From Isoptericola halotolerans (GTDB lineage: Bacteria > Actinomycetota > Actinomycetes > Actinomycetales > Cellulomonadaceae), in the NCBI RefSeq assembly GCF_013149785.1, contig NZ_JABEZU010000002.1:806001-870000 (forward strand): DNA of 64,000 bases. The letters are read 5' to 3'. A program made the position numbers and the translations under genes. Under the pieces are notes generated by a model. The model searched no databases and was not told the origin of the DNA. It was given only the letters and a program-made list of their open reading frames with translations. Numbering within the stretch: the stretch's first letter is position 1; each line of letters begins with the position of its first letter. Shown here in pieces: positions 12,007 to 57,689 of the stretch.

Positions 12007-12012
12007 GGAAGC

Positions 12013-12042
12013 AGGCTAGCGTGTTGAAACGCTTCGACAGAA
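12013..12042 (-). promoter_or_regulatory. GH95-lacI promoter with embedded operator
   Basis: On the minus strand TTCTGT (12037-12042), an 18-bp spacer and TAGCCT (12013-12018) form a promoter. The operator TGTTGAAACGCTTCGACA (12022-12039; 7 of 9 pairs per half) fills the spacer, so repressor binding would exclude RNA polymerase. The same site lies about 85-100 bp upstream of the divergent GH42 gene and may control it too. Confidence 0.65.
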
Positions 12043-12122
12043 CGACCGCGGGCGAGACGCGCCGGTCGTACGACGTCGAGAGGCCGGCGCGCACGGTGGC
12101 GCGCCACAGGGAGGGGACGACG

Positions 12123-14216
12123 GTGTCGAGTCAGGGCGCGACGGCGCGCCGAGCAGCCGGGGGCAGGTTCGCGGAGCTGACGGGCGACCTCGGGATCCTC
12201 TACGGCGGCGACTACAACCCGGAGCAGTGGGATCGGACGACGTGGCGCGAGGACGTGCGCCTCATGGCGGAGGCCGGTGTCAACCTCGTCACCGTCGGGG
12301 TCTTCTCCTGGGCGCGCTACGAGCCCCGCCCCGGGGTGCGTGAGTTCGGTTGGCTCGACGAGGTCCTCGGCCTGCTGCACGCCGGGGGCGTCGCGGTGGA
12401 CCTCGCGACGCCGACCGCCTCACCGCCCCCGTGGCTCGGCAGGCTGCACCCCGACACGCTGCCGGTCGACGCCGACGGCGTGCGGCTCGTGGCGGGCTCG
12501 CGCAACCAGTTCAGCCCCGCCTCGCGGGTCTACCGGGAGCACGCGCTGTCGATCACCCGCGACCTGGTGGACAGGTACGCGGACCACCCGGCCGTGCGGA
12601 TGTGGCACGTCGGCAACGAGTTCGGGCAGGTCTGCCACGGAGAGGAGTCCGCGGTCGAGTTCCGCCGCTGGCTGCGGGCGCGCTACGGCACGATCGACGC
12701 CCTCAACGAGGCATGGGCCACCACGGTGTGGTCTCAGCACTACGCCGACTTCACGGAGATCGTTCCGCCACGACGCATGCCGTACCACGTCAACCCGTCG
12801 CAGGCTCTGGACTTCCGCCGATACTCCTCGGACCAGCTGCGCACGCTGTACCGCGAGCAGCGTGACGTCATCCGCGCCGTCGACCCGGAGCGACCCGTGA
12901 CGACGAACCTCATGGGCTTCTTCCCGCTCGCCGACTACTGGTCGTGGGCCCAGGACCTGGACGTCGTCGCCGACGACGCCTACCCGGACCCAGGTGATCC
13001 GTGGGCTCCCGCCGACGCCGCCCTCGCGTGCGACCTGATGCGTTCCCTCGGCGGCGGAGCCCCGTGGATGCTGATGGAGGCCGCGGTCGGGTCCGTGAGC
13101 TGGCGGGACCACAACCTCCCCAAGTCGCCCGGGCGGTCACGCCTCGAGGCGCTGCAGGCGGTCGCCCGCGGGGCGGACGGTGTCTGCTACTTCCAGTGGC
13201 GGGCGTCGCGCGCCGGGGCCGAGAGGTTCCACTCGGCGATGCTGCCGCACGCGGGACCGGACACCCGGGTCCATGACGGTGTCCGGAAGGTCGGTGCCGA
13301 CCTGCGCCGGCTGCGGGACGTCGTGGGCTCACCGGTCCCGGCGCGGGTGGTCTTGCTCTTCGACTGGGAGTCCTGGTGGGCGGCGGAGGAGCAGGCACGG
13401 CCCACGGACCGGCTGCGCACCCTGGAGGTGCTGCGTTCGTGGTACCGGGTGCTGTGGGACGCGGGTGTCACGGTCGACCTGGCGCACCCCGACGACGTCG
13501 CGGTGACGGGTGCCGCGGGCTACGACGTCGTCCTGGTGCCGCAGAGCTATCTGCTGTCCGTCGACGCGGCCCGAGGGCTCGCGTCGGCGGCGTCCCGTGG
13601 TGCGAGCGTCGTCGTGGGGCCGTTCACCGGCGTGGCCGACGAGAACGCCCACGTGCGGACCGGGCGGTCGCCCGTGCTGCTGCGCGACCTGCTCGGTGTC
13701 AGCGGCGAGGAGTGGGTCCCGTTGCCGGACGACGGGGTGCCGCTCACCCTCGACGAGACGTGGCCGCACGGCGGCGCCGAACCCTCCGGTGGCGCGCAGG
13801 GCGACGGGCACCGTGCCACGATCCTCGGCGAGCTCCTGCGTGCCGACGACGCGCAGGTGCTGGCCACCTTCGACGGCGGTCACCTCGCGGGCGGCGCCGC
13901 GGTCACCCGCCGGTCGCACGGAGCGGGAGCGACCTGGTACGTGGGCACGGTGCTCCCCGGGCCGCTGCTGCGTGACGTGCTGGTGGACGCCTGGGAGCGA
14001 GCCGGTGTCACGGGCGTGCTGGGAAGGGTCAGGACGGCATCTGGAGTCGAAGCGGTTCACCGGGGTCACGCGGTGTTTCTGCTCAACCACTCCGAGCGCC
14101 CCGCCACGATCCGCCTCGAGTCCGCGATGACGGACCTGATCAGCGGTGTGAACTGCACAGATACGACCACCATCCCCGCTCTGGACGCCGCCGTCCTGGT
14201 GCCGCGGGAGGCCTGA
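12123..14216 (+). CDS. GH42 beta-galactosidase, cytoplasmic
   Basis: The GTG at 12123 follows a strong AGGGAGGGG ribosome-binding site and gives a 697-aa product, the usual GH42 length; in-frame starts further upstream would add an arginine-rich tail. The fold begins at GILYGGDYNPEQW. Glu166 in HVGNEFG matches the acid/base and Glu319 in MLMEAAVG the nucleophile by motif and spacing. There is no signal peptide. It is divergent from GH95 and upstream of the alpha-xylosidase operon. In this context it would remove beta-galactosyl residues exposed by defucosylation. Near its 3' end the codon run GTC GAA GCG GTT overlaps an operator-like sequence. Confidence 0.92.
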   Translation: MSSQGATARRAAGGRFAELTGDLGILYGGDYNPEQWDRTTWREDVRLMAEAGVNLVTVGVFSWARYEPRPGVREFGWLDEVLGLLHAGGVAVDLATPTASPPPWLGRLHPDTLPVDADGVRLVAGSRNQFSPASRVYREHALSITRDLVDRYADHPAVRMWHVGNEFGQVCHGEESAVEFRRWLRARYGTIDALNEAWATTVWSQHYADFTEIVPPRRMPYHVNPSQALDFRRYSSDQLRTLYREQRDVIRAVDPERPVTTNLMGFFPLADYWSWAQDLDVVADDAYPDPGDPWAPADAALACDLMRSLGGGAPWMLMEAAVGSVSWRDHNLPKSPGRSRLEALQAVARGADGVCYFQWRASRAGAERFHSAMLPHAGPDTRVHDGVRKVGADLRRLRDVVGSPVPARVVLLFDWESWWAAEEQARPTDRLRTLEVLRSWYRVLWDAGVTVDLAHPDDVAVTGAAGYDVVLVPQSYLLSVDAARGLASAASRGASVVVGPFTGVADENAHVRTGRSPVLLRDLLGVSGEEWVPLPDDGVPLTLDETWPHGGAEPSGGAQGDGHRATILGELLRADDAQVLATFDGGHLAGGAAVTRRSHGAGATWYVGTVLPGPLLRDVLVDAWERAGVTGVLGRVRTASGVEAVHRGHAVFLLNHSERPATIRLESAMTDLISGVNCTDTTTIPALDAAVLVPREA
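14047..14060. promoter_or_regulatory. Operator-like sequence inside the 3' end of the GH42 gene
   Basis: TCGAAGCGGTTCAC matches TCGAAGCGCTTCGA at 11 of 14 positions and lies 230 bp, centre to centre, upstream of the perfect operator at 14277-14290. The spacing is nearly the same as in the GH95 pair (226 bp). It is weaker than the other sites and could be chance. Confidence 0.4.
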
Positions 14217-42831: not shown

Positions 42832-45350
42832 CCCAGCCATCCCCCCGCCGCCGTGCCGTCGAGCTCCACGAGGGCTGGACGGTCCGCAGCACGTCCCGGG
42901 CGGTACCCGGCCACCTCGCCGAGCGGCTCGCAGGGGCCGGCGTCCCGGCCGAGGTGCCCGGTTGCGTCCACACCGACCTGCTGGCGGCCGAGGCGATCCC
43001 GGACCCGTACCTCGACGACCACGAGCGCCTGCTGACGTGGATCGGTCGCAGCGACTGGGAGTACGCCACGACGTTCACCCACCGCGCCGACGGCCACGAC
43101 CGGCACGAGCTCGCCTTCGACGGCCTCGACACGGTCGCCACGGTGCTGCTCAACGGCGTCGAGGTCGCCCGCACGGCCAACCAGCACCGGTCCTACCGGT
43201 TCGACGTCACCGGGCTGCTGCGCGAGGGCGACAACGAGCTCGTGGTGCGGTTCGCCGCGCCGGTGCCGTTCGCCGACGCGCAGAGCCTCGCCCTGGGCCA
43301 GCGTCCGCAGGTCAACCACCACCCGTTCAACGCGATGCGCAAGATGGCGGCCAACTTCGGGTGGGACTGGGGGATCGACGCCGCCACCGCCGGCATCTGG
43401 CGCCCGGTCCGTCTGGAGTCGTGGTCGGCGGCGAGACTCGGCACCGTGACGACGACGGCGACGGCGGACGCCGCGACGGGGGCCGGGCGTCTCGAGGTGC
43501 GTGCCGCCGTCGAGCGGGCGCCCGGCGCGCCGGACGAGACGCTCGAGGTCACCGTGCGGCTCACGGGTCGGGGGGTCGAGCACACCGGGACCACGAGGGT
43601 GACGGCCGGCGACGACCTCGCGACGCTGCGCCTGGAGGTGTCGGACGCCGAGCTCTGGTGGCCCCGCGGGTACGGGGACCAGCCGCTGTACGACGTCGAG
43701 GTGACCCTCGCCGCCGACAGCGCACCGCTCGACGCGTGGACCACGCGCAGCGGGTTCCGTTCGGTGCGTCTGGACATGACCCCCGACGACGACGGCACGT
43801 CGTTCGTCCTGGTCGTCAACGACCGTCCCGTGTGGGTCAAGGGAGCCAACTGGATCCCCGACGACGCGTTCGTCCACCGCGTCGACCGCGCGCGCTACGA
43901 CCGCCGGATCGTGCAGGCCGAGTCGGCGGGGATCAACCTGCTGCGGGTGTGGGGCGGCGGCATCTACGAGTCGACCGAGTTCTACGAGCTGTGCGACGAG
44001 CGCGGGATCCTGACCTGGCAGGACTTCGCCTTCGCCTGCGCGGCCTACGCCGAGGAGGAGCCGCTGCGCGCCGAGGTCGAGGCGGAGGCCCGCGAACAGG
44101 TCGCCCGCCTGGCACCGCACCCGTCGCTGGTGCTGTGGAACGGCTCCAACGAGAACATCTGGGGATTCCACGACTGGGGCTGGCCGGCGGTGCTCGACGG
44201 CCGCACCTGGGGACTGGGCTACTACACCGAGCTGCTGCCCCGCGTCGTGGAGCAGGTCGACGGCACCCGGCCCTACACGCCGTCCAGCCCGTGGTCCGGC
44301 TCGCTCGACGTGCACCCCAACGACGTCCGGCACGGGTCGATGCACTCCTGGGAGGTGTGGAACCAGCTCGACTGGACGCACTACCGCGACGACGTCCCCC
44401 GGTTCATGGCGGAGTTCGGCTGGCAGGGGCCACCCACCTGGGCCACGCTCACCCGTGCGGTGAGCGACGCGCCCCTGACGCCGGAGTCGCCCGGCATGCA
44501 GGTGCACCAGAAGGCGACGGAGGGCAACAAGAAGCTCGGCCAGGGGCTCGCCACCCACCTGCGGGTCCCCGACGACATGGACGACTGGCACTGGGCGATG
44601 TCCTGGAACCAGGCCACCGCCGTCCGCGTGGCCGTCGAGCACCTGCGCTCCTGGGGGCCACGCTGCATGGGGTCGGTCGTCTGGCAGCTCAACGACTGCT
44701 GGCCCGTGACCTCGTGGGCGGCCGTCGACGGCGACGAGCGTCCCAAGCCGCTGCTGTACGCGCTCGGGCAGGCCCACGCCGACCGGCTGGTGACGATCCA
44801 GCCGCGGCCCTCCGAGCAGGCCGGCACCCTGGCGGCGGTGCTCGTCAACGACACCGACGAACCCTGGACCGGGGACCTCGTCGTCCAGCGTCTCGACCTC
44901 GCCGGGACCGAGCTCGCCAAGGGGCGTGAGGCCGTCCGGGTCGCGGCGCGCGGCACGCTCACGGTGCCGTTGCCCGACGACGTCGCGGCCACCGCCGACC
45001 CCGGGACCGAGCTGGTGCGCGCCACGGTCGGCACGGAGCGGGCGCTGTGGTTCTTCGCCGAACCGCGTGACTCCGGGCTGGAGGCACCGGCGCTGACCAC
45101 GGCCGTCACCGCCGTCGACGGCGGGTACCGGGTGGACGTCCGTGCCGAGAACCTGGTGCGGGACCTCACGCTGCTGGTGGACAAGGTCCACCCGGACGCC
45201 CGCGTGGACGAGCAGATGGTCACGCTGCTGCCCGGCGAGAGCACCGAGCTGAGGGTCCGCGTGCCCGACGGCGTCGCCCTCGACGCCGGTTCGCTGACGG
45301 CCGGGCCCGTGCTCCGGTCGCTCAACCAGCTCGTCGCAGGTGCCCGGTGA
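42828..45350 (+). CDS. GH2 beta-mannosidase, cytoplasmic
   Basis: GTG 42828 overlaps the permease stop (GTGA). The 840-aa protein has the beta-mannosidase layout: a sugar-binding domain starting ELHEGW, Ig-like domains, a TIM barrel from WVKGANWIPDD, and a C-terminal beta domain. Acid/base Glu442 lies in WNGSNENIW and nucleophile Glu529 in FMAEFGWQ; FGWDWGI and NLLRVWGGGIYE are also family hallmarks. With no signal peptide it removes beta-1,4-mannose from imported manno-oligosaccharides. Confidence 0.95.
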   Translation: MTQPSPRRRAVELHEGWTVRSTSRAVPGHLAERLAGAGVPAEVPGCVHTDLLAAEAIPDPYLDDHERLLTWIGRSDWEYATTFTHRADGHDRHELAFDGLDTVATVLLNGVEVARTANQHRSYRFDVTGLLREGDNELVVRFAAPVPFADAQSLALGQRPQVNHHPFNAMRKMAANFGWDWGIDAATAGIWRPVRLESWSAARLGTVTTTATADAATGAGRLEVRAAVERAPGAPDETLEVTVRLTGRGVEHTGTTRVTAGDDLATLRLEVSDAELWWPRGYGDQPLYDVEVTLAADSAPLDAWTTRSGFRSVRLDMTPDDDGTSFVLVVNDRPVWVKGANWIPDDAFVHRVDRARYDRRIVQAESAGINLLRVWGGGIYESTEFYELCDERGILTWQDFAFACAAYAEEEPLRAEVEAEAREQVARLAPHPSLVLWNGSNENIWGFHDWGWPAVLDGRTWGLGYYTELLPRVVEQVDGTRPYTPSSPWSGSLDVHPNDVRHGSMHSWEVWNQLDWTHYRDDVPRFMAEFGWQGPPTWATLTRAVSDAPLTPESPGMQVHQKATEGNKKLGQGLATHLRVPDDMDDWHWAMSWNQATAVRVAVEHLRSWGPRCMGSVVWQLNDCWPVTSWAAVDGDERPKPLLYALGQAHADRLVTIQPRPSEQAGTLAAVLVNDTDEPWTGDLVVQRLDLAGTELAKGREAVRVAARGTLTVPLPDDVAATADPGTELVRATVGTERALWFFAEPRDSGLEAPALTTAVTAVDGGYRVDVRAENLVRDLTLLVDKVHPDARVDEQMVTLLPGESTELRVRVPDGVALDAGSLTAGPVLRSLNQLVAGAR

Positions 45351-46318
45351 GCGCCGTCGTGCCGCTGCCCGGCGGTCCCGTCCTCGGGATGACGTGGGGC
45401 TGGACCGGTGTGCGCGGCACCTGGGGCACCCCGGGGGCCGAGGCGTCGATGGACGCGATGGTCACCGAGCTGGCCACCACCTGGACGGCGGTGACCTACG
45501 CCGCCGAGCAGGCCACCGCCCAGTCCACGCGGATCCCGTTCCGCGACGCCCCGGCGCTCACCGACGAGGAGGTCCGCTGGGCCGTGCGGGCCGCCAGGGC
45601 ACGGGGGCAGAAGGTCTGCCTCAAGCCGGTCGTCAACGTCGCGGACGGCACCTGGCGCGCCCACATCGGGTTCCTGCACCCCGACGTGCCGAACGAGCCG
45701 ACCTGGGACGAGTGGTTCGCCTCCTACACCGCGTTCGTGGTCCACCACGCCCGGATCGCGGCCGAGGAGGGCGCGGAGATGTTCTGCGTGGGCTGCGAGA
45801 TGGTGCGCTCCGACGAGCACGCCGAGTCCTGGCGCGCGGTGGTGGCCGCCGTGCGCGAGGTGTACGACGGCCTGGTGACCTACAACTGCGACAAGTACCA
45901 GGAGGACCGCCTCACCTGGTGGGACGCCGTCGACGTGATGAGCGCCTCGGGGTACTACCCGCTGGGGGAGTGGGAGGCGCAGCTCGACCGCATCGAGCCG
46001 GTCGTCGCCCGGGAGAGCAAGCCGTTCTTCTTCATGGAGACCGGCTGCCCGAGCCGCGCCGGGTCCGCGGCGCTGCCCAACGACTGGACGCTGCAGGGCC
46101 CGCCCGACCCCGACGAGCAGGCCCGTTGGTACGCCGACATGCTGACGGCGACGGCGGCGCGTCCCTGGGTGCAGGGCTGGGTGCTGTGGGACTGGCCCGC
46201 CACGCTCTACCCGCCCCAGGACGCTGTCACGAACGACGACTACTGCCCCTCCGGCAAGCCGGCCGCCGCCGTCGTCGCGGAGACGTACCGGCGTCTGGCA
46301 GCGGGGCCCCGGCCGTGA
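45347..46318 (+). CDS. GH113 beta-mannanase-like enzyme, cytoplasmic
   Basis: GTG 45347 overlaps the GH2 stop (GTGA) and gives 323 aa. Glu151 in FCVGCEM and Glu231 in FFMETGC match the acid/base and nucleophile positions known for the Alicyclobacillus GH113 mannanase, and GMTWGWTGVRGTW fits the family start. It lacks a signal peptide, so it probably shortens imported manno-oligosaccharides inside the cell rather than attacking polymer. Confidence 0.85.
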   Translation: MSAVVPLPGGPVLGMTWGWTGVRGTWGTPGAEASMDAMVTELATTWTAVTYAAEQATAQSTRIPFRDAPALTDEEVRWAVRAARARGQKVCLKPVVNVADGTWRAHIGFLHPDVPNEPTWDEWFASYTAFVVHHARIAAEEGAEMFCVGCEMVRSDEHAESWRAVVAAVREVYDGLVTYNCDKYQEDRLTWWDAVDVMSASGYYPLGEWEAQLDRIEPVVARESKPFFFMETGCPSRAGSAALPNDWTLQGPPDPDEQARWYADMLTATAARPWVQGWVLWDWPATLYPPQDAVTNDDYCPSGKPAAAVVAETYRRLAAGPRP

Positions 46319-48474
46319 GCATCGTCCACCTGCGGGCCGGCGGGGTGAGCCTGGTCCTGGACGTCACCGGTGACCGGCTGCCGGTGGTGGTGCACTGGGG
46401 AGCCGACCTCGGCGACGAGCCGGACGAGGTGCTGCAGGAGCTGCGGACCGCCACGCAGCCCCAGCCCTTCGGCTACCCGGTGGACGGCCCCATGCCGGTC
46501 TCGCTGCTGCCCGAGGCCTCGGCGGGCTGGCCCGGCGCGCGCGGGGTGACCGGTCACCGGGCCGGAGCGGCGCCGTCGACCCGGTTCGTCGTGTCCCGGG
46601 TCGACCACGCCGGACGGGACGCCCCGTGGGCGACCGGCGTCGTCGTGCACGCCGGTGACGACGCGGCCGGGCTCGACCTGGTGCTCGAGGTCGAGCAGGC
46701 CCGCAGCGGGCTCCTGCGGCTGCGGGCCACCGTGACCGCCCGGGGCGACGTGGCGGGCACGTACGACCTCGGCGGCGTCCTGCCCGCGCTGCCCGTGCCG
46801 GCCCGAGCCACCGAGCTGCTCGACTTCACCGGCCACCAGCTCCGCGAACGCGCCCCTCAGCGCCTGCCCTTCGCCCACGGCACCCACGAGCGCAGCGGCC
46901 ACCGCGGCCGTCCGGGGTTCGACTCCGGGTACCTGCTCTGCGCCGGGGAGCCCGGGTTCGGCGCCCGCTCGGGCGAGGTGTGGGCCGTGCACGCCGGCTG
47001 GTCCGGCAACCAGCGGATGCACGCCGAACGCTCGTACCACGGTGTCTGCCTGCTGGCCGCCGGCGAGCTCCTCGAGCCCGGCGAGGTCCGGCTCGCGCCG
47101 GGCGAGAGCTACGTCGCGCCCTGGACGTACGCCACCTACGGCACCGGGCTCGACGACGCGAGCGCCCGCGTGCACGACTGGCTGCGTGCCCGACCTGGAC
47201 ACCCGCGCACACCTCGACCCGTGGTGGTGAACACCTGGGAGGCCGTCACGTTCGACCACTCCCTCGACCGTCTCACGGCGCTCGCCGACGCCGCCGCATC
47301 GGTCGGCGCCGAGCGGTTTGTGCTCGACGACGGATGGTTCGGCGCCCGGCGGGACGACCGGGCGGGGCTGGGCGACTGGACCGTCGCGCGCGACGTCTAC
47401 CCCGAGGGGTTGTGGCCGCTGGTGGACCACGTGCGCGGGCTCGGGATGGACGTCGGGCTCTGGGTCGAGCCGGAGATGGTCAACCCGGACTCCGGCGTCG
47501 CCCGGGCGCACCCCGAGTGGTTGCTCACAGCGCCCGGGGGCCGCGCACCCGGACAAGCACGGCACCAGCAGGTGCTCGACCTGGCCGACCCGGGGGCGTA
47601 CGCCCACGTGCTCGGTCAGCTCGACGCGCTCCTCGACGAGTACCCCATCGCCTCCCTCAAGTGGGACCACAACCGGGAGATCGGTGAGGCCGGGCTGCCG
47701 CCGTCGGGCCGCGGTGCGGTCCGGGGACAGACGCTGGCCGTCTACCGGTTGATGGACACCCTTCGCTCACGCCACCCGGGGCTCGAGATCGAGACCTGCG
47801 CCTCCGGCGGCGGTCGCGTGGACCTCGGGATGCTGTCCCGCACCGACCGCATCTGGGCGTCGGACTCCACCGACGCCCACGAGCGCGCCGCGATCCAGCG
47901 GTGGACCTCCCTGCTCGTGCCGTACGAGCTGCTCGGGGCGCACGTCTCCGCGCCGGTGGCGCCGACGTCGGACCGCGCGCTGCCGCTGGACTTCCGGTGC
48001 GCGGTCGCCCTGTTCGGGCACTTCGGGATCGAGTGGGACGTCACCGAGGCGACCGAGGCCGAGCGGGAGCGGCTCGCCGCCTGGGTGGCGTGCTACCGGG
48101 AGCGCCGCGGGCTGCTGCACTCGGGTCGGGTGGTGCACGCCGAGGTGCCGGACCCCGCGTACGACCTGCACGGTGTCGTCGCGCACGACGGCTCCGAGGC
48201 GCTGTACGCCTGGGTGTGCACCGCGTCGTCGGACACCTGGCCGCCGCCGGCGGTACGGCTGCCGGGGCTGGACCCGGACCGGACGTACCGCGTCGCGCTC
48301 GACGGCCCGGCGCGCGACCTCGAGGGTGTCGCCGCTCGTTGGGGAGTGTCGCTGCCGTGGGTCGACGCCGGGGGAGCGGAGCTGCCGGGACGGCTGCTGG
48401 CGGAGGTGGGGCTGGCGATGCCGGTGCTGTTCGCCGACCGCGCGGTGCTCCTGCGCGTCAGTGCGACCAGCTGA
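46315..48474 (+). CDS. GH36 alpha-galactosidase, cytoplasmic
   Basis: GTG 46315 overlaps the GH113 stop (GTGA) and gives 719 aa. After an N-terminal beta-sandwich, the TIM barrel carries VLDDGWFG, LWVEPEMVNPDS, nucleophile Asp451 in LKWDHNRE and acid/base Asp517 in ASDSTDAHER. It removes alpha-1,6-galactose side groups from galactomannan fragments, which lets GH2 and GH113 act on the mannose chain. It is the last gene of the operon. Confidence 0.95.
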   Translation: MSIVHLRAGGVSLVLDVTGDRLPVVVHWGADLGDEPDEVLQELRTATQPQPFGYPVDGPMPVSLLPEASAGWPGARGVTGHRAGAAPSTRFVVSRVDHAGRDAPWATGVVVHAGDDAAGLDLVLEVEQARSGLLRLRATVTARGDVAGTYDLGGVLPALPVPARATELLDFTGHQLRERAPQRLPFAHGTHERSGHRGRPGFDSGYLLCAGEPGFGARSGEVWAVHAGWSGNQRMHAERSYHGVCLLAAGELLEPGEVRLAPGESYVAPWTYATYGTGLDDASARVHDWLRARPGHPRTPRPVVVNTWEAVTFDHSLDRLTALADAAASVGAERFVLDDGWFGARRDDRAGLGDWTVARDVYPEGLWPLVDHVRGLGMDVGLWVEPEMVNPDSGVARAHPEWLLTAPGGRAPGQARHQQVLDLADPGAYAHVLGQLDALLDEYPIASLKWDHNREIGEAGLPPSGRGAVRGQTLAVYRLMDTLRSRHPGLEIETCASGGGRVDLGMLSRTDRIWASDSTDAHERAAIQRWTSLLVPYELLGAHVSAPVAPTSDRALPLDFRCAVALFGHFGIEWDVTEATEAERERLAAWVACYRERRGLLHSGRVVHAEVPDPAYDLHGVVAHDGSEALYAWVCTASSDTWPPPAVRLPGLDPDRTYRVALDGPARDLEGVAARWGVSLPWVDAGGAELPGRLLAEVGLAMPVLFADRAVLLRVSATS

Positions 48475-48563
48475 GCACCCGGTCGTCCGATAGCCACGCT
48501 GGCAGTGAACGCCGGCGGGATAGTCACTGCTCTCCGCCGAGGCCCATGTGGGTGCGTCGCCGA

Positions 48564-49226
48564 CTAAGTTCGAAAGATTGCCCCATTCTCGCCACTATGA
48601 GCTCGGCCTCCGAGGCAGGCCTGGACAGCAGTCGTGGTGTCCTTCACGAGCCGTTGAAACGACGGCAGGCTAGAGACGGGACCGTCCGGGTCGAGGCGCT
48701 CCAGTAAGGTGCTGCGATGGAGTCCGAAGTCGCGGCGCACGCGCCGCAGACGCTTGCCGGAACTCTCGCTGGCGGCTACGCAGGCGCGCGCAAGTATCTC
48801 CTTCGGTTGCTTGGCGGCCTCAATGCGTTGGAGTTTCGGGAGTCCCAGCGGAGTCTTCCCGGACGGGCGCCCCACGACGTCGCGGATGGCCTGCTCATCG
48901 GTCAGGAGCCAAGCTTCCGTCTCCTGTACTGGAACAACGGGAACGCCGGCAACTCTGGCCTCCGCAAAAGCGCTGTTTACTTCGGCGAGGCGCGGGCCCG
49001 AGTCTTCAGTGTCTGCATCGCGATGTAGGAATACTAGGTCATACGGGGTTACCATCTCGGCGAGAAGGGAGTCGACCTTCTGTCGAGATGTCCCGCTGCA
49101 CGGAAACGGCACACCGGTCACCTCGTCGGCGCCGGCGCGGCGCACTAGTTCCCGCAGTACGACCACCACGGACCGGTCGCTCGGACCTTCGCCGATGAAG
49201 GCGAATGAGATCGTGCTCGACGACAT
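48564..49226 (-). CDS. DUF4276/TOPRIM-like protein, partner of the AAA ATPase
   Basis: A 220-aa protein. FAFIGEGPSD (Glu13) and LVFLHRDADTED (Asp70, Asp72) fit the acidic E...DxD metal site of TOPRIM domains. VQETEAWLLTDEQAI and the following LPK...PKEIL region match the DUF4276 pattern. Its ATG shares one base with the ATPase stop (49226), so the two are translationally coupled. TOPRIM partners of such ATPases are often nucleases in anti-phage systems. That this pair is one is inference. Codon use is less GC-biased than in neighbouring operons. Confidence 0.75.
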   Translation of the reverse strand: MSSSTISFAFIGEGPSDRSVVVVLRELVRRAGADEVTGVPFPCSGTSRQKVDSLLAEMVTPYDLVFLHRDADTEDSGPRLAEVNSAFAEARVAGVPVVPVQETEAWLLTDEQAIRDVVGRPSGKTPLGLPKLQRIEAAKQPKEILARACVAASESSGKRLRRVRRDFGLHRSTLLERLDPDGPVSSLPSFQRLVKDTTTAVQACLGGRAHSGENGAIFRT

Positions 49227-50641
49227 CAGGCGTCGTCCTCGTCTCCACCAGCTCCCAGCTGGAACGCCAACTGGTCTCCAAGGTTAGTCTTCAGGTAGTC
49301 AACTACGTTGGACTTTGTCATCACCGTCACTGCGGCTGATGCACGCCATGACTCTTGCATGGGATGTAGGCGAACTGTGGTCGCTGCACGTCCACCGCGC
49401 GTTACGGGTGTAGGCATCGCAAGGACTAGATCGTCCTTGTCCTGCTTCCGTACAAACATCGGTGAATGTGTGTTGACGATGACCTGACGCATTGGATTCT
49501 CGTCACCTGGCGCTTCGTCGGGATCAACGGCGAGATCGTGCACGAGGTCTACCATTGCTTGGATTCTCGCTGGATGGATCCCGTTCTCGGGCTCCTCCAT
49601 GCAGATTACGCCATCGAATTCCGGGTCAGCTTCCATGATGCTCAACGCAAGAAACCGCAGTGTACCGTCTGAGAGGTTGCGTGCGGGGATTTCCGGGCCG
49701 GCACCGATGCCAGCCTTCAAGGTGAGGAGCTCACGACGCTCGTCGAAATCGACCCGAATACTCCGGACGTCAGTTAGGGCTGACGCTGCCGCGGCAACCC
49801 GTGAGTTGATGTCAGTATCGGCGGTACCCATGCGCAGTAGGGCCGCGGCCAAGTGGGCTCCGTTTGGCGATACCGATGTAGGCGCGGTAACCTCGTCCGG
49901 CTGTCGCATTGCGGAAGGTTCGAGTGCAAGCAAATGCCACCGCCTCATTTCGTTCCGCGCAGCAAGGATCGTCGGAGCATCAACAGTGGTAGTAGTGCTA
50001 ACAAGCGTCCTTGGCGCGCTGGCCGCCGGTGATTTGCGTGGCTGTCCCCGGCTTCCGCCATCTTGGTGGACGTTAATCGTAATATCACCGCTGTCGGTCT
50101 CTGCGGTCGAGATGAAATCTGCGTTGCGGCGGCGGTTGTAGATTGCCGTATCTCGGAATGATTTCTTACCTCGCGTCCATGGCATACGTTGCACCGCTTG
50201 GCCTGCTCGCATGCTCTCCAAGTTTTCCTCAAGAAGTCTGATGGTTGCGCTCCGCCCGAGCGGTCCGGTTTGCGCGGCGGGATGATATTCAAGTACGAGT
50301 TCATAGCGGAGCCAGGTGGTCGTAGCAGAACCCTGTCGGCCGAAATCGTCCGTTACATCGCTCGGAACGATCATCTCTGCGGCGAGTCGCATGCGACGCG
50401 GGCCATTATTGCCATCGTCGAAGAAGAGCATGCCCGGGTCCGCAGGTCCCCCGTCGGTGGACCGGACCATAGCCGCTGCCTCGACAAAGGTCCGATCGGC
50501 AAGAAGTGAAAGAAAAACGATAGCGTCAAATATGTTCGACTTTCCGACTGAGTTTGGCCCCGCAATGCATGTATACGGGCCAAAGTCGGAACTGAACCCC
50601 AAAAGATTCTTGAACCCATCGACTTCGAGTCGCGTCAGCAT
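49226..50641 (-). CDS. AAA-family ATPase, SMC/OLD-like
   Basis: ATG 50641 (MLTRLEVDGFKNL) opens a 471-aa protein; AGGG eight bases upstream supports it over ATG 50647. Walker A is GPNSVGKS (residues 28-35), the ABC-type signature is LSDGTLRFLAL (about 330), Walker B is DGVICMEEPENGIHP (about 350), and VNTHSPMFV (about 405) is the switch/His segment. This layout is that of OLD-like AAA ATPases. It is upstream of, and fused by overlap to, the DUF4276 gene. A, T and wobble-position AT are visibly more frequent than in flanking genes. Confidence 0.85.
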   Translation of the reverse strand: MLTRLEVDGFKNLLGFSSDFGPYTCIAGPNSVGKSNIFDAIVFLSLLADRTFVEAAAMVRSTDGGPADPGMLFFDDGNNGPRRMRLAAEMIVPSDVTDDFGRQGSATTTWLRYELVLEYHPAAQTGPLGRSATIRLLEENLESMRAGQAVQRMPWTRGKKSFRDTAIYNRRRNADFISTAETDSGDITINVHQDGGSRGQPRKSPAASAPRTLVSTTTTVDAPTILAARNEMRRWHLLALEPSAMRQPDEVTAPTSVSPNGAHLAAALLRMGTADTDINSRVAAAASALTDVRSIRVDFDERRELLTLKAGIGAGPEIPARNLSDGTLRFLALSIMEADPEFDGVICMEEPENGIHPARIQAMVDLVHDLAVDPDEAPGDENPMRQVIVNTHSPMFVRKQDKDDLVLAMPTPVTRGGRAATTVRLHPMQESWRASAAVTVMTKSNVVDYLKTNLGDQLAFQLGAGGDEDDA

Positions 50642-51122
50642 GCCCATGACCCTACAGAACAATCTGGGCGCTCGGGAGTCCGACGCGCGCACCGTGAACC
50701 ATGTTGCTGCGGCTTCCGTGTCGGCATCGGATCACTAGTGGGGTCGGCGTGTAGGTCATGTCCGGCGACCGGCGGGTAGAAGTGGGCTCGGGGCGATTCG
50801 GTGGGTGGTTCCCGTTCTGCACGATCGCGTGGCAGCACTAGTCTCGGCGTGGTCGTACCGCTCCAGCGTTGCTTGGGAGGGCGGTTTCCGACGGCGTGCC
50901 GTCAGGCAACGCCGTGTCGCGGACCTGCAGGGCGTCTTGCGGGCCAGGAGCACGGCTGGGAAGCACGACGTCGCACCGGGATCGGACCGGGCCAAGAACA
51001 CCACAGAACCAGCATGGTTCGTTGTGGATGTTGGTGCGCGAGGTCTCCAGTCGGCCCGTTGCGACAGGTTCAACCCACCCTGTGTGACGATGTTGCAGAA
51101 GAGGGCTCTTTGCCGTGGCAGG
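50642..51122. other. 481-bp stretch without a convincing gene
   Basis: It lies between the AAA ATPase start and the maltokinase stop, both leftward. Reading frames here give arginine/serine-rich products with no recognisable domain. The promoter of the ATPase operon must lie in the left part. No terminator or insertion-sequence end could be proven. The segment GTTGCGACAGGTTCAACCC (51058-51076) and nearby words look unlike their surroundings and may be a relic of transferred DNA. Confidence 0.4.
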
Positions 51123-52535
51123 TCAGATAGTCAGCACCCGGTCGACGGCGCCGAGCGGGATGGGCAGCCACTCCGGGCGGTGGTGGGTCTCGTAGACGAC
51201 CTCGTACAGCGCCTTGTCCAGGACCAGCGCACGCAGCAGCAGCTCCGCGGTGCCGTCGTCCATCAGGGCGCCGGGCCCCGACGCCGTCGCCGCGGCCGTG
51301 CGGTACCCGTCCACGAACGCCCGGGTCGCCTCCGCCTGCCAGGCGGCCGGGTCCGGTGCCGCCCCGATCGCGGCCGCGTAGTCGAACGACCGCAGCATCC
51401 CGGCCACGTCCCGCAGCGGCAGGTCGGGTCGGGTCCGCTCGGCGACGGGACGTTGCGGCTCGCCCTCGAAGTCGAGCACCTTCCAGGCGCCGTCGCCGAA
51501 CAACGTCTGGCCCAGGTGGAGATCGCCGTGGACGTGCTGGGTCGGCAACGGGTGGGGCAGGGCCGACAGCCGCTCGACGAGCCGGTCGAACAGCGCGGCG
51601 ATCTCGTCGGCGCGGTCCGCCACGGACGGGGCGTCGCCGACCGCGCGCTCGGCCCGCGCACGCAGCCCTGACACGAACGACGCCGCGTCGAGGGAGGGGC
51701 CGGGCGGCAGCACCCGGACCATGCGTTCGTGCAGCTCGGCGACCAGCCGTCCGAGGTCGTGGGCATGACCCGCGAACGACTCGCCGCGGCTCGCCACGTC
51801 GCAGGCCAGCTCGAAGCCGTCGGCCGCGTGCGGCACCAGCTCCGACACGATGGCCAGGTGCACCGGCAGGCCCACCGAGTCTGCGGCCGCCACGTCGATC
51901 TCCAGCGCGCCCAGGAACCGGGGCACCCCGTCCCAGCCGTCCTCGGTCAGTGCCTGGGGGACCACGACGTCGGGGTGCGGCCCGTCGGCCACCGTGCGCA
52001 GGATCTTGAGCATCCCACCCGCTCCACCGGGCGACGGGACGCCGGGCAGGATCACCGAGGTGTTCGACTGCTCGCCGGCCAGCACCCGGCCCCGCTCCGT
52101 GAGGGACTCCGGCCGGCCCTCGACCCCCATCGCCCGCAGCAGCGTCAGCCAGCAGACCGGGTGGGCGCCGCCGTCGTGCACGGCGACCTCGCCGGACGCC
52201 GTGGTGACGGTGTCGATGAAGCCCGGGCCGGGCGTCGCCGGGTCGGTGAGCACCAGCGGGACCTGGACGGTCACCTCGCCGCCCGGCAGGGCGGCCCCGA
52301 CCAGGCGGGTGAGAAGCAGCACGACGTCCGCCGACGTCGCGGCCAGGGCCTCGCCGTCGGGCCCGGTGGTGGTCTCTTCCTCACCGTTCGCCTCGAACGT
52401 GACGGCGAGCCACGGGTCGGCGCGGACCTCGCCGTGACCGGGGTACCAGCGCCGTGTGGGCAGCCAGGTGGCCAGCAGGGCCTCGATGTTCGGGTCGGGT
52501 CCCTCGGCTGCGGTCCGCACGGCGACGTCGATCAT
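51123..52535 (-). CDS. mak: Maltokinase (Pep2/Mak)
   Basis: ATG 52535 starts a 470-aa protein with WLPTRRWYPGHG near the N-terminus, a kinase-like fold, HVHGDLHLGQ (catalytic loop) and KVLDFEGEP (metal-binding), and a C-terminal end EWLPIPLGAVDRVL typical of actinobacterial maltokinases. It phosphorylates maltose to maltose-1-phosphate for GlgE. It follows treS by 5 bp as the last gene of glgE-treS-mak. Its start choice excludes a longer frame that runs into treS. Confidence 0.93.
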   Translation of the reverse strand: MIDVAVRTAAEGPDPNIEALLATWLPTRRWYPGHGEVRADPWLAVTFEANGEEETTTGPDGEALAATSADVVLLLTRLVGAALPGGEVTVQVPLVLTDPATPGPGFIDTVTTASGEVAVHDGGAHPVCWLTLLRAMGVEGRPESLTERGRVLAGEQSNTSVILPGVPSPGGAGGMLKILRTVADGPHPDVVVPQALTEDGWDGVPRFLGALEIDVAAADSVGLPVHLAIVSELVPHAADGFELACDVASRGESFAGHAHDLGRLVAELHERMVRVLPPGPSLDAASFVSGLRARAERAVGDAPSVADRADEIAALFDRLVERLSALPHPLPTQHVHGDLHLGQTLFGDGAWKVLDFEGEPQRPVAERTRPDLPLRDVAGMLRSFDYAAAIGAAPDPAAWQAEATRAFVDGYRTAAATASGPGALMDDGTAELLLRALVLDKALYEVVYETHHRPEWLPIPLGAVDRVLTI

Positions 52536-52540
52536 GGCGG

Positions 52541-54340
52541 TCAGGCCTCCGTGTCCGTCGCTGTGCGGGCCCCGCCGTCGGGCGGCGTGGCCACCAGCCA
52601 GTAGAAGTCGCGAGACCCCCAGGAGAGACTGACCCGCCCGTCGGGGCCGACGGGCGGGAACTTCCCGCCACCGAACAGGTCGGTGAGCGACCACCCCTCG
52701 AGGCCCGGCGCCTCGATCGTCGCCGACCGGGCGGTGGCCGACAGGTTCGCGGCCACCAGGAGCGTCTCGCCGTCGGTGCGGGTGAACGCGAGGACCGACT
52801 CGTCGTCGGCCGCCAGGGCCGCGAACTCGCCGGTGCCGAAGGCCGGGTGCAGACGGCGCACGGCGAGCATGCCGTGCACCCAGTGCAGCAGGGAGCTGGG
52901 CTGCGCCAACTGTGCTTCCACGTTCGTGTGCTGGTAGTGGTGCACCAAGGACTGGTTGAGCGGCAGGTACAGCTTGCCCGGGTCGGCCGTGGAGAAGCCC
53001 GCGTTGCGGTCCGGCGTCCACTGCATGGGGGTGCGCACGGCGTCACGGTCCGGGAGCCAGATGTTGTCACCCATGCCGATCTCGTCGCCGTAGTACAGGC
53101 ACGGGCTGCCCGGCAGGGACAGCAGCAGGGCGTGCGCGAGCTCGATCTCCTTGCGGGAGTTGTCCAGCAACGGGGCGAGCCGACGCCGGATGCCGACGTT
53201 CGCGCGCATACGGGGGTCCTGGGCGTACCACCCGTACATGGCGGCGCGCTCCTCGGTGGAGACCATCTCGAGGGTGAGCTCGTCATGGTTGCGCAGGAAC
53301 GTGCTCCACTGCCCGCCGGGGGCCGGGATGTCAGGGGTGTCCGCCAGGATGTCCAGCAGCTGGGTGGCACGCTGGTCCTTCAGCGCGTAGTAGATGCGTG
53401 GCATGACGGGGAAGTGGAAGCACATGTGGCACTCCGGGTCCTCGGCCGTGCCGAAGTACTCCACCACCTCCTGCGGCCACTGGTTCGCCTCGGCCAGCAT
53501 GATGCGGCCCGGGAACTCCTCGTCGATCATCCGCCGGACGCGACGCAGGAACTCGTGGGTGCGGGGCAGGTTCTCGCAGTTGGTGCCCTCCTCCTCGAAC
53601 AGGTAGGGCACGGCGTCCAGCCGGAAGCCGTCCACCCCGATCCGCAGCCAGAACCGCGCGACCTCGAGCATCGCCTCGGCGACCTTCGGGTTCTCGAAGT
53701 TGAGATCGGGCTGGTGGCTGAAGAACCGGTGCCAGAAGTACTGGCGGCGGACCGGGTCGAACGTCCAGTTCGACGTCTCGGTGTCGACGAAGATGATGCG
53801 CGCGTCCTGGTATCGCGTGCTGTCGTCGGACCAGACGTAGAAGTCGCCGTACGGCCCGTCCGGATCGGCGCGCGAGGCCTGGAACCAGGGGTGCTGGTCG
53901 CTCGTGTGGTTCATGACCAGGTCGACGACCACCCGGATGCCCCGGGCGTGGGCGGCCTCGATGAGCTGCTGGAAGTCCTGCAACGTCCCGTACTGGGAGG
54001 CGATCGCGGTGAAGTCCGCGACGTCGTACCCGCCGTCGCGCAGCGGCGACGGGTAGAACGGGGGCAGCCACAGGCAGTCGACACCGAGCCACTGCAGGTA
54101 GTCGAGCCGGTCGACGATGCCCCGCAGGTCTCCCGTGCCGGCGCCCTCGGTGTCCGAGAAGGCGCGGACGATGACCTCGTAGAAGACCGCCTTGCGGTAC
54201 CAGTCCGGGTCGTCGGTCAGGCCTGGCTTGGCCAGCGGGGGCGGCTCCGGCTGCGCCCGCGGCGGGAGCGCCTGGACGGGGATCTGACGCGTGATGGGGC
54301 GCGGCACGTCGACGCCCCCTGCGTTCACCGAGGCGTTCAT
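52541..54340 (-). CDS. treS: Trehalose synthase
   Basis: ATG 54340 overlaps the glgE stop (ATGA) and gives 599 aa. It is a GH13 enzyme: [18 protein letters not shown] start, [26 protein letters not shown] with nucleophile Asp242, LAEANQWP with the acid Glu and [10 protein letters not shown] with the third Asp. It interconverts trehalose and maltose. The first 45 residues are a proline-rich tail not needed for the fold. Neighbouring mak uses the maltose. Confidence 0.95.
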
Positions 54341-56391
54341 GCCGGGCCGATCCTCAGCACGTGGGCCACCTGCTGCTGCGGGTCGAGGCGGACGAAGGGG
54401 TGTGCGCCCCAGGGGTACGACTGCCCGGAGAGCAGGTCGTGGGCGGTGAAGAAGGGTTGGTCCTCGACGCCCTCGGGTCTGACCAGTCCGAGGGCCTCCA
54501 GGTCGAGAAGCACCGTGGACTCCTGCACCTCGTGAGGGTCCAGGGTGAGGACCACGAGGACGACGTCGTCCTGCGTCGCGCCGGGGCGGCCGGTGGCGGG
54601 CAGGTGCTCGGCGCGGACCCGTCGGGAGAACGCGACCACCTGGTCGTTCGTGGTGGGGTGCACCGAGAGGTTGCGCAGCTGCTGCAGGGCGGGGTGCGCC
54701 CGGCGGACCTCGTTGAGCTTGCCGAGCAGCATGGAGATGCCGATGTCGTCGGCCTGCGCCCAGTCCCGGGGTCGGTACTCGTACTTCTCGTTGTCGATCT
54801 GCTCGTCGGCGCCGGGACGCGGCACGTTCTCGACGAGCTCGTAGCCGGAGTAGATGCCCCACGTCGGCGCCCCCGTCGCGGCCAGGACGGCACGGATCGC
54901 GAAGCCGGCGACGCCGCCCTCCTGCAGGTACGGCGGCAGGATGTCGTGCGTGGTCGGCCAGAAGCTGGGTCGCATCACGGCACCGGCCTCGCCGGAGACC
55001 TCCTGGAGGTACTCCAGGACCTCCTCCTTCGTGTTCCGCCAGGTGAAGTACGTGTAGGACTGGTGGAAGCCGATGCGGGCGAGGGTGGCCATCATCGCGG
55101 GCTTGGTGAACGCCTCGGACAGGAAGATCACGTCGGGGTCGGTGGCGTGGACCTCCGCGAGCAGCCACTCCCAGAAGTCCAGGGGTTTGGTGTGCGGGTT
55201 GTCCACCCGGAACAGGGTGACGCCGCGGTCGATCCACAGGCGGACCACCCGCAGGACCTCGGCGTAGATCCCCGCCGGGTCGTTGTCGAAGTTCAGGGGG
55301 TAGATGTCCTGGTACTTCTTCGGTGGGTTCTCGGCGTAGGCGATCGACCCGTCGGCGCGCACCGTGAACCACTCGGGGTGCTCGGTCACCCAGGGGTGGT
55401 CCGGCGAGCACTGCAGGGCCAGGTCGAGAGCGACCTCGAGCCCGTTCTCGTGGGCCTCGGCCACGAACGCCTTGAACCCGCGCTCGGTGCCGAGCTCGGG
55501 GTGGATCGCGTCGTGGCCGCCGTCGGGCGACCCGATGGCGTACGGGCTGCCCGGGTCGCCGGGCTGCGCCTCCAGGGTGTTGTTGCGGCCCTTGCGGAAG
55601 GTCGTGCCGATCGGGTGGATCGGGGTGAGGTAGACGACGTCGAACCCCATGGCCGCGATCGCGGGCAGCCGCTTCGCCGCGGAGACGAACGTCCCGGACC
55701 GCCAGGTGCCGTCACGACGCTGCGTCGCGCCCTCGGACCGCGGGAACATCTCGTACCAGGCACCCGTCAGCGCCAGCTCACGATGCACGCGCAGGGGATA
55801 GGTCGGGCTCGGGCTCATCATCCGGCGCAGCGGGATCCGGCGCAGCGCGTCCCGCACGGCCGTGGTGGTGGCCATCGCCAGCCGGGCCTCGGCGGGCCGG
55901 GTGGTGTCGGCCAGCTCGCGGGCGACGTCAGCGAGCAGCTCGGCGTCCTCGGGTGTGCGGCGCCGCTGCAGGCTCTTGGCGGTGATCTGCTCGAACAGCA
56001 GGGCACCTTCGGTGAGCATCAGGTCGACGTCCTGCCCGGCACCGACCTTGATGACGGCGTCGTGCGCCCACGTCGCGTACGGGTCGGACCACGCCTCGAC
56101 GCGGAACGACCAGTCGCCGGTCGCGTCCGGCTGCAGGAACCCGCGGAAGCGGTCCAGGCCGGGGGAGACGTCCTCCATGGGCGCCCACGAGTGGACCTTG
56201 CGGTCCGGGCCGAACAGGACGGCGGTGGCGTTCACGGCGTCGTGCCCCTCCCGGAAGACGGTCGCCTCGACGGGCACCACCTCGCCGGGGGTCGCCTTGG
56301 CCGGCCACCGGCCTCCTTCGATCACGGGCGAGACCTCGATCACGGGGATGCGACCGACGGGACGGGGTGGTGCTGGCTGGGGCGACGTCAC
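54337..56391 (-). CDS. glgE: Alpha-1,4-glucan:maltose-1-phosphate maltosyltransferase
   Basis: A 684-aa GH13_3 enzyme starting at GTG 56391, [18 protein letters not shown]. Asp397 in [12 protein letters not shown] (nucleophile) and Glu426 in FLSEAFTKP (acid/base) keep the 29-residue spacing of Asp394/Glu423 in the Streptomyces enzyme. It extends alpha-1,4-glucan by two glucose units from maltose-1-phosphate. A TAGCGT -10 (56398-56403) six bases upstream predicts a leaderless operon mRNA. Confidence 0.95.
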
Positions 56392-56612: not shown

Positions 56613-57689
56613 ATGGACGACACCGGCTCACCGACCCCCGGCCGACCGGAACGCGGGCCCTCCGGACGGCGCGGCCCCCGGCCCTCCATGACCGGCCCGC
56701 CGCAGGCGCCCGGCACCCGTCGTCCGGCTCGGCGACCCGGCGACACTGCGGTGCCGGAGCCACGCGCCCTGCCGGAGGTGGTGCGGTTCGACCCGGCTCG
56801 GCGCTCCGTCATCGAGCGATCGCTCCGGCGCGGTCAGCTGCGTCGGGTGCGGCAGGGCGTCTACCTCCCGGCGGTGGTGGACGACGGCGGCCCCGCGCTC
56901 CGGCGTCAGCGCCGCGTCCTGGAGAAGGCGGCCGCCGTCGCCGCGACCCTGAGGAGCGACGTCGTGTTCAGCCACGAGACGGCCGCGCTGATCCACGGCC
57001 TGGCTCTCTACCGACTCGCTGACGAGGTCCATGTCACCCAGCGGACCAAGCCGAGGGTGCGCAAGCGGTGGGACCCGGACCTGCGTCGGCACGCTGTCCC
57101 GCTGCCCGACCGGGACCGGACGGTGGTCCGCGGTCGGGCCGTCACGACGATCGAGCGCACCCTCGTCGACTGTGCGCGGTGGCTGCCCGGCCCGCAGGCG
57201 TTGGTGATCGCCGACTCCGCGCTGCGAGCCGGAGCCGACCTGCGTCGGGTCGGCAGGATCCTCGCCGAGGCAGCGGGCCGGCCAGGTGTCCGCCAGGCGC
57301 GGTGGGTGGTCGACCTCGCCGACGCGCGGGCGGAGTCGCCGGGGGAGTCCCTGGTGCGGTGGCACCTCCTGGACCATGGTCTGGCCGCTCCCGATCTGGC
57401 GGTCCCGGTCGCGACCCGACGGGGGACGAGCTGGATCGATCTCGGTTGGCCCGACCTCCGGGTCGGGATCGAGTTCGACGGTGCGGTCAAGTACTCGGGT
57501 GGAGACTACGGTGACCCGCACGAGCGGCTGGTGGCGGAGAAGATGCGGCACGACGCCCTCGTCGAGGCGGGGTGGTTCATCCTGCGTGTCACCTGGGCGG
57601 ACCTCGGGGATCCGGCCGCGCTGGTGGGTCGCGTCCGCACCGCGCTCGCGGAGGCCGGGCGCCGTCGTCGCCTCGTGTCCGCGAAGTAG
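56613..57689 (+). CDS. AbiEi-like winged-helix plus DUF559 nuclease-like protein
   Basis: The 358-aa product begins with a proline/arginine-rich tail (about 1-50) that may not be translated; the conserved part starts at LPEVVRFDPARRSVIERSLRRGQLRRVRQGVY, the wing-helix region found in AbiEi-type antitoxins. ATLRSDVVFSHETAALIHGL follows. The C-terminal 100 residues hold IEFDGAVKYSGG and EKMRHDALVEAGWFILRVTW, the DUF559/very-short-patch-repair-like PD-(D/E)xK pattern. No toxin partner is adjacent. The stop codon (57687-57689) lies inside repeat copy 2. Confidence 0.8.
   Translation: MDDTGSPTPGRPERGPSGRRGPRPSMTGPPQAPGTRRPARRPGDTAVPEPRALPEVVRFDPARRSVIERSLRRGQLRRVRQGVYLPAVVDDGGPALRRQRRVLEKAAAVAATLRSDVVFSHETAALIHGLALYRLADEVHVTQRTKPRVRKRWDPDLRRHAVPLPDRDRTVVRGRAVTTIERTLVDCARWLPGPQALVIADSALRAGADLRRVGRILAEAAGRPGVRQARWVVDLADARAESPGESLVRWHLLDHGLAAPDLAVPVATRRGTSWIDLGWPDLRVGIEFDGAVKYSGGDYGDPHERLVAEKMRHDALVEAGWFILRVTWADLGDPAALVGRVRTALAEAGRRRRLVSAK

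Follow-up and report, generated by a model that had tools for sequence, protein, structure and literature searches.

A stand-alone HEC-01-type pair of an OLD-like ATPase and a DUF4276 protein, probably a horizontally acquired defense module, in Isoptericola halotolerans

The 64,000-nt stretch of Isoptericola halotolerans DNA analyzed here (hereafter, the window) carries on its minus strand a gene pair that encodes an OLD/ABC-type ATPase and a DUF4276 protein. Judged by sequence, the pair is of the HEC-01 type, a class already catalogued by PADLOC as a candidate defense system, and not a new kind. We think it probable that the pair is a stand-alone, two-gene HEC-01 member gained by horizontal acquisition, in which a PARIS-like sensor ATPase would be joined to a caged TOPRIM-like nuclease. 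The relevant features (positions within the window) are as follows.

48564..49226, minus strand: DUF4276 protein, HEC-01B-like, 220 aa (PADLOC, Pfam DUF4276, conserved residues)
49226..50641, minus strand: OLD/ABC-type ATPase, HEC-01A-like, 471 aa (PADLOC, Pfam AAA_21/AAA_15, motif conservation)
50642..51122, minus strand: leader upstream of the ATPase, 481 bp
48475..51122, no strand: inserted segment carrying the pair, GC 0.61, missing between the same flanking genes in G008, G011, G012, and G009
48474..48485, plus strand: left copy of a 12-bp exact direct repeat (repeat search), at the stop codon of the alpha-galactosidase-like gene
51133..51144, plus strand: right copy of the repeat (repeat search), inside the 3′ end of the maltokinase-like gene

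The gene pair and its insertion site

Both ORFs were recovered at these coordinates, and the single base common to them, 49226, agrees with the one-base overlap described in an initial annotation made from the sequence alone. As the ATPase start we took the ATG supported by alignment with relatives; an ORF with a GTG start is longer and extends to 50692. The pair occupies a 2.6-kb insert of lower GC between two convergent sugar-metabolism genes, both named by reading of the sequence and not by a search: an alpha-galactosidase-like gene on the left, ending at 48474 (+), and a maltokinase-like gene on the right, ending at 51123 (−). Specifically, the GC content is 0.610 for the insert (0.577 for the ATPase and 0.637 for the partner) versus 0.709 for the window, and third-position GC is 0.61 for the ATPase and 0.70 for the partner versus 0.93–0.98 for those ORFs of the window whose calls look right. 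The flanking genes are adjacent and the site is empty in four congeners (G008, G011, G012, and G009), with 7, 4, 82, and 89 bases, respectively, between the matched parts of the flanks; the other 13 congeners are uninformative on the site because the matched flanking genes were not found side by side there. The lower-GC insert between metabolic genes that the initial annotation had noted is thus borne out by composition, flanks, and empty sites.

One related copy of the 12-bp repeat is present at the empty sites of G008 and G011; the repeat belongs to a short two-copy family of a kind that often arises by chance, and it does not fix the insertion mechanism. No recombinase was found in the insert, no RNA family within positions 45000–55000, and no tRNA gene in the window. 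Horizontal transfer is the best explanation for the gain of the pair. The leader (50642–51122) yielded no sigma-70-type promoter, terminator, or RNA family, and six ORFs from the leader and the ATPase start region had no Pfam match at E ≤ 0.1. Compared with the fetched relatives, leader DNA had no match at E < 0.1 except in the window's own genome, and the translated comparison gave short, scattered matches among those listed.

Identity and conserved motifs of the ATPase

A PADLOC run, which had been proposed alongside the initial annotation, returned HEC-01 models as the best for both proteins. In PADLOC-DB, the ATPase matched HEC-01A (PDLC04184) with an E value of 1.9e-92 and 308.7 bits over residues 1–403 of 471, a match judged by E value and bits and not by PADLOC's own score threshold; the next-best model was far behind (E = 1.8e-28). 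Pfam AAA_21 (E = 5.4e-22) and AAA_15 matched as well. The ATPase had been described as OLD-like with Walker A, signature, Walker B, and THS elements, and all four were located: Walker A GPNSVGKS at residues 28–35, the signature region LSDGTLRF at 323–330, Walker B ICMEEPENG at 346–354, and NTHS at 390–393. They are nearly invariant in an alignment of 78 ATPases (the window protein, the L082 protein, and those of 76 of the 80 scan loci described below, four having been left out for length), with K34 and S35 retained in 76/78 and S324, E349, E350, and H392 in 78/78. The alignment subsets A1 (n = 66) and A2 (n = 62) are to be distinguished from the 71 partners and 78 ATPases aligned for conservation counts.

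Searched against the PDB, the ATPase profile recovered 52 sequences at E ≤ 0.01, most of them over the P-loop end only. AriA (8ux9) was found with an E value of 4.2e-5 over profile positions 272–404, while OLD (6p74; E = 4.8e-11) and the Retron-Eco8 OLD protein (E = 2.7e-7) were matched at the P-loop end only, as were SMC, Rad50, and RecF proteins.

The DUF4276 partner and its TOPRIM-like features

The assignment of the partner to DUF4276 was upheld, with a Pfam E value of 2.4e-7 and a score of 31.7 bits, just over the cut-off of 30.2; the family was also matched by 63 of 66 partners at E ≤ 0.1. Its best PADLOC-DB model was HEC-01B (PDLC04210; E = 2.6e-24, residues 44–203 of 220). The metal site of TOPRIM domains is characterized by an acidic residue and a DxD motif, and the initial annotation had pointed to such an E...DxD pattern in the partner. 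To the 79 partners found we applied a length filter that left out eight; across the 71 aligned, the conserved positions are E/D13, G14, D17, D70, D/E72, E104, and W106, which form the pattern E/D-G..D, D-x-D/E, E-x-W. This acidic pattern is present as an acidic residue at 13, D70, and an acidic residue at 72, plus E104, and these four occur together in 69/71 partners (the exceptions being L076 and L082), so the acidic pattern withstood this check on its conservation. W106 and L108 are invariant across all 71.

The E-x-W-L-L motif of the partner is also found in most of eight RloB proteins. When the partner profile was compared with these eight, the EG, DxD, and ExWLL motifs fell in register with a probability of 19.7% (P = 0.0012). 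With gap columns removed, the probability was 25.1% and 0 of 300 column shuffles reached the score; with gap columns kept, 5 of 100 shuffles did so. Two controls, a reversed RloB profile and three near-identical DapB proteins, each gave 0.1%. This weak match supports, but does not prove, a TOPRIM-like partner. A PDB search with the partner protein and the partner profile gave no match that looks meaningful and no TOPRIM structure, which speaks against our best explanation. Considering the motifs and the weak profile match on which the assignment rests, the partner is likely a TOPRIM-like nuclease effector.

Coupling and distribution of the pair

The initial annotation had suggested searching for the pair across genomes. 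Such a scan yielded 93 ATPase relatives, of which the best 80 were kept; a partner match lay downstream of, or fused to, the ATPase in 77 of these 80 loci, some of the 77 matches being fragments or in odd frames (e.g., L051, L056, and L072). Two of the three loci without a partner, L042 and L075, stop at a contig edge. The third, L067 from Poribacteria (9989–12668), lacks the DUF4276 partner despite 9.9 kb of downstream DNA, a point against our best explanation, and has ThiI directly after the ATPase; in the Poribacteria loci L062 and L064, the partner is present between the ATPase and ThiI. A 4-base overlap of the two ORFs was inferred in 41 of the 77 loci. Protein distances of ATPase and partner were strongly correlated (Mantel r = 0.924 for 68 pairs; highest of 999 permutations, 0.192). 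The ATPase and partner diverge together and are conserved as a unit. The genome of L082, from the same order, carries a pair of greater divergence (31% and 29% identity). As a separate observation, in Streptomyces sp. SID4985 (L055:7051-9195), a single ORF encodes most of the ATPase together with the partner, and the ATPase N-terminus lies in a separate upstream ORF.

The occurrence of the ATPase is patchy. No close relative was found in 17 congeners (two of the 17 less than 90% complete), and five of them had any match (E values of 1.1e-7 to 8.6e-4). Counting the window's own genome, any match at E = 0.001 was seen in 16/58 genomes and a strong match (E ≤ 1e-60) in 4/296 genomes of the phylum. 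Of 148 genomes from the class, 14 encode a DUF4276 family member, again with the window's own included, and none encodes DUF4435. Among mobile records, the ATPase was matched by 19 of 72,556 plasmids (six over ≥80% of its length) and 2 of 50,697 phages; the partner was found on one plasmid record, that of Kovacikia minuta, which matches the ATPase with the partner just downstream. Carriage of the ATPase on mobile records is rare, and this counts against our best explanation.

Relation to known systems

HEC reportedly stands for Hma-embedded candidate, and HEC-01 is said to come from a 2024 preprint by Payne et al. Like the window pair, HEC-01 has two components, and both window proteins score best against HEC-01 models. 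Specifically, the window has the gene of a HEC-01A-type ATPase and, next to it and in the same orientation, that of a HEC-01B-type partner, the two overlapping by one base. The earlier statement that no named system corresponds to the pair did not hold, and the notion of a wholly new, unnamed system was rejected, both in view of the HEC-01A and HEC-01B matches. Several HECs, HEC-06 included, are described in a 2026 paper as having shown antiviral activity (PMC12988326). The literature searched contained no phage assay of a HEC-01-type pair and no mention of DUF4276.

The pair had also been likened to PARIS and AbiL, with a partner of a different family, and this likeness stands: the AriA and AbiLi models match the ATPase, and 66 partners gave no Pfam match to DUF4435 or RloB at E ≤ 0.1. 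As in PARIS, an OLD-type ATPase whose profile recovers AriA lies beside a small, putatively TOPRIM-type effector; the AriA PADLOC model matches the window ATPase at 5.3e-22, far more weakly than HEC-01A does. The AriB effector of PARIS carries DUF4435, whereas the window partner is a DUF4276 protein. DUF4435 is absent from the 14 families matched by 66 partners at E ≤ 0.1, and membership in PARIS was rejected on this ground. AbiL consists of AbiLi and an RloB-type partner. The AbiLi model matches the window ATPase (3e-14) and the partner shares the EG, DxD, and ExWLL register with RloB, but membership in AbiL was likewise rejected, given no Pfam RloB (PF13707) match among 66 partners at E ≤ 0.1 and the weakness of the RloB profile match.

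A likeness to MADS is seen in the NCBIfam MAD3 model, which matches the ATPase over residues 1–440, and in MAD4, which is weakly related to the partner (four of the 66 partners gave a match when E values as high as 1 were allowed, the lowest being 4.1e-5). MADS membership was rejected, the MAD3 score being 133.9 bits against a cut-off of 420, and no other mad gene was matched among the 35 other window ORFs. Because MAD3 falls far below its cut-off and MAD4 is weak, the pair appears to be a distant relative of MAD3-MAD4 and not a member. With WonAB and PD-T4-4, the pair shares an OLD-ABC ATPase and a separate putative nuclease. WonAB is described as an OLD-ABC ATPase with a nuclease for which defense was shown, WonB being a PD-(D/E)xK nuclease (PMC12137116); the window partner differs in being a DUF4276 protein. 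The pair was not assigned to OLD class 1, in which ATPase and TOPRIM are described as lying in a single chain (PMC10568477), the 471-aa ATPase having no TOPRIM family match.

Neighboring genes in the window and elsewhere

We compared 35 other window ORFs with PADLOC, based on our own ORF calls scanned to 700 aa, some in wrong frames, and obtained only GlgB-like (3), beta-galactosidase-type (1), and AbiEi-like (1) matches. The pair sits alone among the 35 other ORFs scanned, which counts against a defense reading.

The AbiEi-like ORF matches three PADLOC AbiEi models (best, 8.9e-14) and was assigned to 56613–57689 (+) via its motif pattern. By eye, the ORF at this position resembles an AbiEi-type winged-helix protein at its start and a DUF559-type nuclease at its end; it had no Pfam match at E ≤ 0.1.

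Across the scan loci, we surveyed 152 immediate neighbors, again from our own ORF calls, some of which are surely wrong; 105 of the 152 are common to no other locus. The near set comprised 150 of these (one ATPase fragment and one gene more than 1500 bases away were left out) and the far set 112 fourth neighbors, with proteins of both sets scanned to 330 aa; family figures refer to the 25 commonest of 69, 89, 48, and 79 families. Ten neighbor proteins were picked for a defense-like look and scanned singly, and eight of the ten matched at 1e-8: a Type I restriction protein (L059, with homologues in L060 and L063), a DRT reverse transcriptase (L008), GajA (L080), a second HEC-01A-type ATPase (L021), a NERD+UvrD or GajB-like helicase (L002), HEC-05 (L026), PDC-S37 (L049), and a REase_II-like protein (L010). 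The L005 protein and a second L010 protein, also among the ten, had no match. HEC-05 is described as a GmrSD-like protein (PMC11411939). An Mrr_N-type and a McrBC-family protein flank the pair, on one strand, in the Actinophytocola loci L010 and L011 (Pfam counts assigned to loci by sequence), which favors the defense reading. Restriction-type families among the matches listed for the 150 near neighbors were REase_I (3), McrBC (2), PglX (1), and type IIG (1).

In a post hoc observation, at least 12 of the 150 near neighbors proved to be tRNA-related (CCA-adding enzyme, 4; Dus, 3; ThiI, 3; class II tRNA synthetase, 2), spanning about five lineages by our own count (L062, L064, and L067; L070 and L073; L077 and L079; L020; L035, L037, L039, and L040). 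The CCA-adding enzyme adjoins the pair in four Saccharomonospora and Amycolatopsis loci, Dus in Umezawaea and Thiosymbion (the latter also with DapB), RNase HII-type and ThiI genes in Poribacteria, and class II tRNA synthetase in two Bacteroidetes-type records. No tRNA family was among the matches listed for the 112 far proteins (the 25 commonest of 79 families), a comparison that does not amount to a test. These housekeeping neighbors recur within lineages, which we counted against the defense reading.

Proposed function and alternative explanations

By analogy with PARIS and WonAB, we propose a scheme of a sensor ATPase and a caged nuclease. The PARIS effector AriB is described as a two-metal-ion Toprim tRNase that the AriA ATPase restrains up to the moment at which a phage protein is sensed (PMC12409363). 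The window ATPase, as a relative of AriA and MAD3, is likely the sensor and scaffold; it would most likely oligomerize, sense a phage-induced cue, and keep the partner in check. The partner, as its conserved motifs suggest, is most likely a TOPRIM-like two-metal-ion nuclease that acts through E13, D70, and D72, with E104; upon release it would cleave nucleic acid, with tRNA, the target of AriB, as one possibility, and so stop the infected cell. That DUF4276 as a whole is an RloB/AriB-like TOPRIM ribonuclease family and HEC-01 a PARIS-like tRNA-cutting immune system is a speculative extension that we consider unlikely; if true, a functional link to tRNA would explain why the pair is found beside tRNA genes in some five lineages.

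The pair might instead be a DNA-targeting module of the restriction type, akin to McrBC, Type I, or a MADS accessory, in which the ATPase would recognize modified or foreign DNA and the partner would cut it. The extended MAD3 match, the MAD4 matches among partners, the McrBC-family genes in L010 and L011, and the Type I restriction gene in L059 point in this direction; however, the MAD3 score lies far under its cut-off, restriction-type matches are few among those listed for the near neighbors, and none was found among the 35 other window ORFs, which together leave this reading doubtful. Tight two-gene coupling would suit a toxin–antitoxin-like addiction pair with a toxic partner, a neutralizing ATPase, and phage defense as an incidental effect, and the nomenclature lends itself to this idea, as the Pfam entry for AAA_21 speaks of a putative AbiEii toxin domain and AriA was deposited as "AriA antitoxin" (PDB 8v45). 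Against it, the catalytic motifs of the ATPase are nearly invariant, beyond the need of a mere blocker, and L067 retains the ATPase without a partner; we regard an addiction pair as quite improbable. A role outside defense, for example in chromosome or RNA maintenance, has a precedent in the archaeal OLD protein Cran1, for which a role of this type is described (PMC12796447), and would fit the housekeeping, in part tRNA-related, neighbors. The patchy occurrence (16/58 genomes, 4/296 in the phylum, no close match in congeners), the foreign composition, and the empty sites argue against such a role and make it very unlikely. The reading that we prefer is the stand-alone HEC-01 member with a sensor ATPase and a caged, TOPRIM-like nuclease.

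Significance

OLD-type ATPases paired with various nucleases are described as a larger, uncharacterized family of sensors with nuclease effectors (PMC12137116). The pair is of interest as a tractable representative of a catalogued candidate class; it does not constitute a new kind. It stands cleanly by itself, near relatives have the site empty, its predicted active site is conserved, and the mutants to make are clear, so that this locus would allow a direct test of DUF4276 function.
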